The position numbers and the translations under genes were made by a program. A stretch of 56,295 nucleotides of DNA. Source: an uncultured Pelagibacteraceae bacterium. GTDB taxonomy: Bacteria; Pseudomonadota; Alphaproteobacteria; Pelagibacterales; Pelagibacteraceae. The DNA lies in NCBI GenBank assembly GCA_902574705.1, contig CACGOM010000007.1, positions 1-56,295 on the forward strand, written 5' to 3'. The notes beneath the pieces are model-generated. The model was not told where the DNA came from. It ran no database searches and saw only the letters and a list, made by a program, of their open reading frames with translations. Shown here one piece after another: positions 8,974 through 11,354 of this stretch. Positions within the stretch are counted from its first letter, which is position 1. Each line of letters opens with the position of its first letter.

Positions 8974-9375
8974 TTATAAAGACATTATTTTTGTTTCAAT
9001 TTTCATTTTTGGAAATTTTTTCTTAAGTTTTTGTTTTATTAATTTAAAAGATTTTACATGAATTTTTTTTTCTATATTTAAATTAAATGGTTTTTTTCCA
9101 TTAATAATTTTTGCCGCGCCACAGTCTTGATGATTGAGTACTATTAACTTTTTAATTTTATGTAATGTTATAGAGGTTTCTAGGTTTTGCCAAAATGTCG
9201 AATGCCACTTTTTAAACTTGCTTGAAGTAACCCCAATAGCAGCTCCAGCAATAGTAAATGAACTATACTTTCCAGTAAGTTTTTTCTTTTTTAGATAGTT
9301 AAAGACTTTTGGTTGAAACCTTGGATCAATACACGATAGAACCATTGCCTTATAATCCTTTCTCTTTTTTTTCAT
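8974..9375 (-). CDS. Short beta-carbonic-anhydrase-like protein
   Basis: The 133-residue protein keeps the zinc-site signature of beta-carbonic anhydrases: Cys-x-Asp-x-Arg (SCIDPRF, residue 14-19) and the His-x-x-Cys pair (NHQDCGA, near residue 80-86). It is clearly shorter than the usual ~190-220 residues and lacks most of the C-terminal region; the basic tail ends soon after the zinc site. It may be a reduced carbonic anhydrase or a zinc protein of another role. It is convergent with the preceding gene and has no evident operon partner. Confidence 0.7.
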   Translation of the reverse strand: MKKKRKDYKAMVLSCIDPRFQPKVFNYLKKKKLTGKYSSFTIAGAAIGVTSSKFKKWHSTFWQNLETSITLHKIKKLIVLNHQDCGAAKIINGKKPFNLNIEKKIHVKSFKLIKQKLKKKFPKMKIETKIMSL

Positions 9376-9438: not shown

Positions 9439-9897
9439 ATGAAGAATATATTTTCCATAATTTTAATTTTCTTATTTTTAAACTTAAGTGCTAATGCAGC
9501 ATTTTTAAATGTTACAATTGATTATAACAAAAGCTCAAATTGTAAACTCGACAAACAGATTTTAAAAAATGAGATTTATGATTATAAAGAATTTTCTGCA
9601 GATCAAATCAAAGAAAACCATTATAAAAAAATAAATATAAAAGCAATTAAATCGCAACAACTTAATATAATTGGTTTATCAAATTTTTTTACAAATACAC
9701 CAAATGGTGCAATTTATGATACTCAAATTATCAAAGATAATACAATTTTACTTCGGGTTTTAACAAATGATGAAAAGTATTCTGAATCTGTTTTTATAAA
9801 TAAATCTACAGGTGATATGCTTCATGAAATTACAACAAACATTAATACTGAGAATCAAGGTAAAGAAATTTCTTTTTATACGTGTGATATGCAATAA
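9439..9897 (+). CDS. Secreted protein of unknown function (152 aa)
   Basis: A signal peptide is clear (MKNIFSIILIFLFLNLSANA, cleavage near ANA-AFL). The mature part is about 130 residues with two Cys (NCKLD and the C-terminal YTCDM), probably a disulfide linking the ends, and beta-rich stretches. It ends just before the tandem Fur-like sites, which point to the next gene. No family recognised. Confidence 0.65.
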   Translation: MKNIFSIILIFLFLNLSANAAFLNVTIDYNKSSNCKLDKQILKNEIYDYKEFSADQIKENHYKKINIKAIKSQQLNIIGLSNFFTNTPNGAIYDTQIIKDNTILLRVLTNDEKYSESVFINKSTGDMLHEITTNINTENQGKEISFYTCDMQ

Positions 9898-9904
9898 AAA
9901 AAAA

Positions 9905-9919
9905 TGATAATGATTATCA
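9905..9919. promoter_or_regulatory. Fur box 1 (perfect 7-1-7 inverted repeat)
   Basis: TGATAATGATTATCA is an exact match to the 7-1-7 Fur operator core; the inverted repeat extends to 19 bases (9903-9921). It lies about 115 bases upstream of the ATG at 10020 and directly after the stop of the previous gene. Confidence 0.85.
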
Positions 9920-9954
9920 TTATTAATTTTTTTTAAGTAAAAAAAAACTTTTTT

Positions 9955-9969
9955 TGAGAATGATTATCA
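9955..9969. promoter_or_regulatory. Fur box 2 (7-1-7 repeat with one mismatch)
   Basis: TGAGAATGATTATCA differs from the ideal Fur core at one base. Its centre (9962) is 50 bases, close to five helical turns, from the centre of box 1 (9912), so two dimers would bind the same DNA face. It is 51 bases ahead of the ATG at 10020. Confidence 0.82.
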
Positions 9970-10019
9970 TTAAAACTAAAACTTCTTGAATTAATTTTAC
10001 AAATTATTATTTCTAATTC

Positions 10020-10202
10020 ATGGATACACAAACATATAACTGTAAAAAATGTGGTTTAACAATTTCATCTACATGCTCTAAATGCGATAGAGTTGTTGAT
10101 GTTAAAGTAATGGACGATGGTTGTTTAGTACAGGTTACTAAATGTGGAGATTGTGCAAATGTTCCAGTAATAAAAGATATTTGTACAGTTCAAAATAAGT
10201 AA
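10020..10202 (+). CDS. 60-residue Cys-rich protein under tandem Fur operators
   Basis: This very small soluble protein has eight Cys: CKKC near residue 8, CSKC near 19, one at 35, CGDC near 42-45, and one near 55. The pattern suggests one or two metal-binding knuckles or a zinc ribbon. No signal peptide or membrane segment is seen. Two Fur-type operators lie directly upstream and no other gene begins there, so iron- or metal-dependent control is a direct prediction. The family is unknown to me; a metal-binding or metal-sparing role is inference only. Confidence 0.8.
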   Translation: MDTQTYNCKKCGLTISSTCSKCDRVVDVKVMDDGCLVQVTKCGDCANVPVIKDICTVQNK

Positions 10203-11354
10203 TTAAAGAACAACTAAATCTAACTTTTGTTTACCTAATCTTTCATTACCTTGTTCTGTAACAAGGTAAGTTTCACCTAGGTTCATTGCTAGTTGATTAT
10301 CTGAGTTCATTAATATCATATGCATAAAGAACACATTGCCTGTCTCTATGACATAAGGGTTGCCCGTATACAGCATAGGCACATCCATCCAATTTGGAGA
10401 AAAAGTAGTTCCTAAAGAATAACCGCAAGCATTCATTCTTGCTTTATTATAACCATGATCATCAAATGTTTTGGCATGAATATCAAAAACTTCACCAATT
10501 TTATTTCCTGGCTTTAATTTACTTTCACAATTTTTTAATGCTTCAATACACGCTTCGTGCATTTTATGATGCTCAGGATCAGCTTTACCAATCGGAATAG
10601 TTCTAAACATTGCAGAGTGATAATGCCTATATGTACCAGCCCATTCAATAGTTAATTGATCTGGATTTTTTAAAATTTGTTTTTCTGCTTGATAACGACA
10701 GAGTAGGGCGTTCTTTCCTGAACCAATAATAAATTCATTAGCAGGATAATCACCACCACCTTCAAATATAACTCTATTCATTTCAGCTAATATTTTAGAC
10801 TCACTTACTCCTGCTTTTGCATGCTTCCAAACCTCATCTAAAGCTTTGTCAGCAAGTTCTGCAGCTTTTCTTACGTAAACAATTTCCTCTTTTGATTTAA
10901 TAACTCTTAACTTTGTAATTAGATCAGATTTATCTTCAATTGAGCAATAGTTTTCTAAAGATTTATTTAATCTTAAAGCATTTCTTCCAGTTAAACCGTA
11001 AGCCTCATACTCAATTCCTAATTTTTTTCCTTTAAGATTAAGTTCATTCAAAATAACTTTAAGATCATCTGTTGGATTAGAGCCATCTTTATCAATCCAA
11101 ATTCTAATGTCTTCAATATTAGAAGTATTTTGTGCTTGTCTTAGATCAGGAGCCCTAGTTAATAAAATTATATTTCCTTTTTGATCAAGAATTAATGTTT
11201 GAAAAAAAACATAACCAAAAGTGTCATAACCAGTTAGCCAATACATAGATTCTTGTCTAAACATTAAAAGTGCATCAATATTTTGCTCATTCATTGAATT
11301 TAAAACTTTAGATTTTCTTGATTTAAATTCTTCTTGTGAAAAGTGAAGACCCAT
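10203..11354 (-). CDS. M24-fold hydrolase without metal ligands (ectoine-hydrolase/creatinase-like)
   Basis: The 383 residues show a creatinase N-terminal domain (about 10-145) and a pita-bread M24 domain (about 155-375). At the places where aminopeptidase P has its two metal-binding Asp, this protein has Glu and Ala (TIEWAGTYRHYHSAMFRT); the HGIG His is replaced (CGYSLGTTFSPNWMDVP), and the EPG Glu is Met (FFMHMILM). Such loss is known for metal-independent members, namely creatinase and ectoine hydrolase (DoeA/EutD), and the C-terminal wording resembles DoeA. An amidase on a compatible solute or other small molecule fits better than Xaa-Pro peptidase. Confidence 0.75.
   Translation of the reverse strand: MGLHFSQEEFKSRKSKVLNSMNEQNIDALLMFRQESMYWLTGYDTFGYVFFQTLILDQKGNIILLTRAPDLRQAQNTSNIEDIRIWIDKDGSNPTDDLKVILNELNLKGKKLGIEYEAYGLTGRNALRLNKSLENYCSIEDKSDLITKLRVIKSKEEIVYVRKAAELADKALDEVWKHAKAGVSESKILAEMNRVIFEGGGDYPANEFIIGSGKNALLCRYQAEKQILKNPDQLTIEWAGTYRHYHSAMFRTIPIGKADPEHHKMHEACIEALKNCESKLKPGNKIGEVFDIHAKTFDDHGYNKARMNACGYSLGTTFSPNWMDVPMLYTGNPYVIETGNVFFMHMILMNSDNQLAMNLGETYLVTEQGNERLGKQKLDLVVL

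Follow-up and report, generated by a model that had tools for sequence, protein, structure and literature searches.

Predicted Fur-family operators, conserved and helically phased, upstream of a putatively leaderless gene for a small cysteine-rich protein in SAR11 bacteria

Fur-activated genes carry Fur boxes upstream, and Fur-repressed genes carry them over the polymerase site (PMC3788343). The activated set includes Neisseria norB, aniA/pan1 and nuoA, H. pylori oorB and V. cholerae ompT; in these, the box resembles that of repressed genes and lies 5′ of the polymerase site, as one site about 90-130 bp upstream (PMC3788343). E. coli ftnA, which encodes a ferritin, is likewise an iron-handling gene turned on by upstream-bound Fur (PMC3788343), acting there by displacement of H-NS. 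In SAR11, Ca. P. ubique has no ferritin, and HTCC1062 sfuC mRNA rises 16-fold under iron limitation (PMC2864753).

The window analyzed here (56,295 nucleotides) is contig C7 of a 1.07-Mb, 40-contig Pelagibacteraceae (SAR11) genome. It contains a gene for a small eight-cysteine protein, here termed Cys60, preceded by two candidate operators, op1 and op2 (Table 1). As in the activated genes of Neisseria, H. pylori and V. cholerae, the boxes lie 5′ of the likely polymerase site and resemble those of a repressed gene. Unlike that set, Cys60 has a pair of sites, of which the nearer is at -55, with conserved whole-turn spacing and a predicted leaderless start. The proposed likeness to ftnA is that of an iron-handling gene switched on by upstream-bound Fur, although Cys60 is not a ferritin.

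Table 1. Positions in the window of the Cys60 gene, its predicted control elements and the adjoining genes
Feature	Position	Strand	Remarks
Distal operator op1, GATAATGATTATCATTATT	9906..9924	+	Core centre 9915, -105 from ATG; similar to the classical 19-bp Fur box
Proximal operator op2, GAGAATGATTATCATTAAA	9956..9974	+	Core centre 9965, -55 from ATG
Predicted -35 element, TTGAAT	9986..9991	+	TTG conserved in homologues
Predicted -10 element, TATTTC (consensus TANTTT)	10008..10013	+	16-bp spacer; imperfect in the window's clade
Cys60, 60-aa, eight-Cys protein	10020..10202	+	CxxC-x7-CxxC plus C35, C42xxC45, C55
152-aa co-directional ORF 5′ of op1, signal-peptide-like start	9439..9897	+	Clade-specific neighbor, outside the unit
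M24 peptidase, convergent	10203..11354	-	Clade-specific neighbor; abuts the Cys60 stop codon

An initial annotation had described two 7-1-7 inverted repeats, one perfect and one with a single mismatch, 50 bp apart and followed by this 60-residue gene, and had proposed a genome scan for further copies. Both repeats are present 5′ of the eight-cysteine reading frame, with centers separated by 50 bp: the perfect palindrome TGATAATGATTATCA at 9905-9919 (center 9912) and TGAGAATGATTATCA, with one mismatch, at 9955-9969 (center 9962). Both operators share the 13-bp core AATGATTATCATT, whose centers are offset by three bases from the 7-1-7 centers because site 1 holds two overlapping 7-1-7 registers. 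When a Fur box is defined as a 7-1-7 inverted repeat, TGATAATnATTATCA, or as the 19-bp GATAATGATAATCATTATC, op1 and op2 depart from the first form at 0 and 1 positions, and as 19-mers they have 1 and 2 mismatches to GANAATGATNATCATTNTC.

The genome scan found exact AATGATNATCATT only twice in 1.07 Mb, as the op1 and op2 cores. At one mismatch there are 26 sites genome-wide, as compared to 12 for the reversed control pattern. The window alone contains 5 matches at up to two mismatches against 1.97 expected, which is unremarkable; the strength of the operator case is its exactness and conservation, not the within-window match count. The only other strong intergenic operator in this genome lies at fbpA/sfuA (C12:8091-8131), so the operator is common to a known iron gene of the same organism. 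An apparent exact operator match in a different genome (G046:C5, L236) was discarded, as it coincides with the beginning of a coding sequence.

Conservation was assessed in 98 upstream regions of homologues taken from 80 contigs and many further genomes. At a threshold of at least 10 of 12 core positions, the proximal site is present in 90/98, the distal site in 90/98 and both in 82/98 (shuffled means of 0.24, 2.8 and 0, respectively). The few loci without a good distal site are L022 and some of those linked to katG. The proximal core is centered at -55/-56 from the ATG in nearly all homologues; an apparent -49 in L093 reflects a wrong start codon (MGMQ...) and becomes -55 once corrected. The distal core lies at -85, -96, -105 or about -116/-117.

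Across 19 dereplicated promoters, this gives op1-op2 spacings of 22 (in two), 30-31, 41, 50-51 and 60-62, all of which are whole helical turns. A Rayleigh test places the peak period at 9.9-10.1 bp with R 0.90 (n=19 dereplicated), and its nominal p of about 2e-7 is too small, as the sequences are related and fall into just five distinct spacing classes. The spacing of 41 occurs in a different genus, and spacings of 30 and 50 both occur within one neighborhood (c7+/c2-). Judged from these alignments, five near-whole-turn classes distributed in this way would not easily arise unless phase were under selection. The pairing and helical phasing ascribed to these sites in the initial annotation are therefore borne out in the family, and op1 and op2 are almost certainly conserved operators of a Fur-family protein.

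The genes surrounding Cys60 are less constant. Its homologues occur in 17 neighbor combinations, or roughly 12-17 distinct neighborhoods, which include katG with peroxiredoxin, the M24 peptidase, dapB/dnaJ and a bile-acid-type transporter; in one, the upstream gene is divergent. As the operators are kept across these varied neighborhoods, they go with Cys60, not with the genes beside it, and the region would represent a self-contained, relocatable regulatory unit. In many relatives (L014-L051, L065-L080), Cys60 is located directly 3′ of irr-katG and beside the peroxiredoxin gene; the window genome has irr-katG at another place (C13, L002). A beta-carbonic-anhydrase-like ORF (Pro_CA_2, 133 aa; 8974-9375, strand -) adjoins the locus and is present in some close relatives only. 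At 10200-10203, zero bases separate the stop codons of Cys60 and the convergent peptidase gene. A search of IMG/VR for a viral origin of Cys60 returned zero relatives, and no Rfam family of structured RNA matched the locus.

The neighborhoods also bear on whether op1 serves chiefly to end the upstream gene, as a bidirectional A/U-rich terminator, which would leave op2 as the sole operator. In the window, op1 begins beside the stop codon of that gene, and the op1 RNA gives a strong fold followed by a U-tail, at -11.3 kcal/mol (z -4.1). This main role was rejected as highly improbable, because loci with a divergent upstream gene (c21-, L045 and relatives) retain op1, at whole-turn spacings, and because the op1 stem has few G-C pairs; a terminator scan calls none. 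The A/U-rich hairpin at 9895-9935 may nonetheless double as a weak terminator.

Between op2 and the ATG, 32 dereplicated sequences show three conserved blocks and no others: TTG (-34 to -32), a T-rich stretch (about -25 to -21) and TANTTT (-12 to -7). With a tolerance of 2 bp, TTG at -34 is found in 98/98 upstream regions and TANNNT at -12 in 77/98; the two occur together in 77/98, against a shuffle mean of 2.8 and maximum of 8. A start was considered leaderless if a -10 hexamer lies 6-7 bp 5′ of the start codon and a Shine-Dalgarno sequence is absent. Here, the hexamer is at this distance, as TATTTC in the window itself, and a Shine-Dalgarno-like stretch appears in just 2/98 regions. The conserved TTG and TANTTT and the lack of a Shine-Dalgarno sequence thus make a sigma70-type promoter near the ATG likely, positioned 3′ of both operators and giving a leaderless mRNA predicted to begin at the ATG or beside it. 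Measured against the E. coli consensus, these elements are weak, and they are not called by a standard scan. This fits an activator-dependent promoter and is also a reason for caution.

Both operators lie upstream of this likely promoter and none lies over it. The cores are at -55 and -85 to -117 and the TTG is at -34, which is the placement of sites at Fur-activated genes; the overlap of -35/-10 elements or start that marks Fur repression is absent. In almost all clades, a gap of about 11 bp or more lies between the 19-bp op2 site and the -35 element.

The genome encodes three Fur-family proteins. L001 is the sole canonical Fur, and its nearest solved structures are 5fd5/5fd6 (the best PDB match) and Magnetospirillum Fur (4ray-4rb3). 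L002 is Irr-like and adjoins katG, and L003 is Zur-like and adjoins znuC/znuB. The Fur-family protein using op1 and op2 is very probably Fur. From sequence comparison, the motif is most likely that of Fur and iron-linked, because it is common to sfuA, whose mRNA responds to iron, and because the Zur palindrome differs; iron and manganese are both possible as the sensed metal. It is very unlikely that a regulator other than iron-Fur, such as a Mn-sensing Mur, Zur or Irr, acts here. The encoded Irr-like and Zur-like proteins would allow this, as would the best PDB match of L001, which we take to be a rhizobial protein and possibly Mur. Against it, the same operator is found at an iron(III) transporter gene with iron-responsive mRNA in HTCC1062 (PMC2864753), and the likely Zur site is a different palindrome. 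That site was identified by eye in the znuA-znuC gap, which contains TGTTATATTATAAC-type palindromes in place of the op1/op2 motif. In the window genome, the palindromes of this divergent gap (L237 1915-1980, G000:C3) likely represent the SAR11 Zur box.

The SAR11 sfuA/sfuC promoter offers a comparison within the same genomes, with the same operator sequence and also a tandem arrangement. Upstream of sfuA/fbpA, which encodes an iron(III)-binding protein, 24 dereplicated relatives share a nearly invariant 40-bp block containing two sites 22 bp apart. (The alignment left out five loci, and a few entries have a too-early ATG that leaves operator-anchored columns unaffected.) In contrast to Cys60, the sfuA operators cover the only plausible core promoter, which sits inside the block, and are followed by a Shine-Dalgarno leader at a variable distance from the ATG. 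Nothing is conserved between the block and the Shine-Dalgarno sequence. This is the arrangement of a Fur-repressed gene, and operator and promoter conservation are inseparable there. In the HTCC1062 genome (G155, matched by coordinates), sfuC ends at 1,181,971, one base before the published intergenic region (from 1,181,972); sfuC carries the tandem operator (L232). The Cys60 gene was not found in HTCC1062, the strain of the published iron arrays. In Ca. P. ubique, the pre-sfu intergenic region has appeared in a list of putative structured RNAs (PMC2864753, PMC2704228); the 40-bp tandem Fur operator (L130/L143, G000:C12:8091-8131; L144-L173) may largely explain that listing.

The direction of control is suggested by this difference. 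At Cys60 the conserved promoter lies 3′ of both sites, unlike that of sfuA, and published Fur-activated genes have upstream boxes; it is thus moderately probable that metal-loaded Fur activates the gene when cells are iron-replete. By analogy with these systems, the best reading is that Cys60 is a variant of the Fur-activated promoter and sfuA is of the repressed kind. With op2 fixed at -55/-56 and about 11 bp short of the -35 element, an activator that touches polymerase would be expected. From the operators, their conservation and phase, and the promoter elements, we infer the following sequence of events. The genome's Fur, loaded with metal, would bind both operators cooperatively, so that two dimers occupy one face of the helix 5′ of the weak promoter. 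The dimer at -55 would recruit RNA polymerase in a class I-like manner, and transcription would begin at the ATG of the small metal-binding protein. The gene would be ON under sufficient iron, opposite to sfuA. Taken in full, a relocatable two-operator unit through which Fur activates a leaderless gene for a metal-binding protein is, on balance, a plausible account.

The initial annotation had noted strong double control of the kind usually reserved for major iron genes and a possible role of the protein in iron-limited cells, a direction that corresponds to iron-dependent repression. The same operators and Fur could repress from upstream, with phased dimers looping or oligomerizing and blocking alpha-CTD/UP-element contact, such that iron-starved cells would produce the protein. 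Repression is the commonest Fur mode and the other strong target, sfuA, is of the repressed kind (PMC2864753); Fur oligomerizes along DNA (PMC3788343), and phasing suits looping as well as activation. Upstream repression is a serious alternative but less likely than activation, given that both sites end about 11 bp or more before the -35 element in almost all clades, that op2 keeps a set distance of -55/-56 in the manner of a polymerase-touching activator, and that the promoter elements are weak, as in an activator-dependent promoter. Of the initial interpretation, the Fur-type operators and the uncurated protein family stand, and the direction of control is probably the opposite.

The Cys60 protein itself is strongly constrained. 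All eight cysteines and 17 other positions are invariant in 28 homologues, and the median dN/dS of 0.09 shows purifying selection. C8, C11, C19 and C22 form the CxxC-x7-CxxC set; C35, C42, C45 and C55 are the remainder. No Pfam or NCBIfam model matches above its cut-off, in agreement with the annotated lack of a recognized family. The double zinc ribbon (PF12773, DZR) and rubredoxin-like small proteins also have CxxC pairs about 8 residues apart, but the DZR score is far below the gathering cut-off (18.5 versus 27.3 bits) and the match is confined to Cys60 residues 6-29. No Pfam or NCBIfam model of bacterial metallothionein is among the matches listed up to E 10, and a PDB sequence search gave no match below E 0.38. 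Judged by these searches, Cys60 is an unnamed small protein family outside the curated families.

Structure prediction from the 28 homologues gave an unreliable fold (pLDDT 51), so the predicted metal sites are read from the cysteine pattern alone; a natural guess is that Cys60 binds two metal ions with four cysteines each. A sister family of 60-70 aa (MATYECxKCGMSVNATCGKC...CCGxDM), which lacks a functional name, is found in SAR11 and other marine Alphaproteobacteria. C8, C11, C19, C22, C42 and C55 and their surroundings align between the families, whereas the second site of the sister is altered (C35 lost, His or CC). Because this second set changes, partly to a possible His, zinc and iron are equally possible as the Cys60 metal. 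Most sister copies read also differ in having a Shine-Dalgarno sequence and no Fur operators. Each of the Pelagibacterales genomes with a match has a single one, either Cys60 or the MATYEC sister and never both (126 genomes; noted at G160, G177, G178, G216, G222, G244, G270, G349); G693, from another order, has both. This mutual exclusion may reflect replacement or simply phylogeny. A tentative role for Cys60 is to buffer or hand on metal in a ferritin-free cell.

SAR11 bacteria rank with the most numerous cells on Earth, possess few regulators, lack ferritin and are not readily manipulated genetically, so their regulation must be read from sequence. For this purpose, the Cys60 locus defines the SAR11 Fur motif, with sfuA as internal control, and constitutes a clean natural experiment on helical phasing, as its spacing varies by whole turns only. 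A joint reading, in which SAR11 Fur is a position-dependent dual regulator and Cys60 a new iron- or zinc-buffering family replacing the missing ferritin, is unlikely to hold in its entirety. If true, Fur would repress over the sfuA promoter and, in iron-replete cells, activate Cys60 in a class I-like manner through two phased dimers and a leaderless mRNA. Given a known direction of control, the Cys60 transcript might serve as a marker of iron status in ocean metatranscriptomes.
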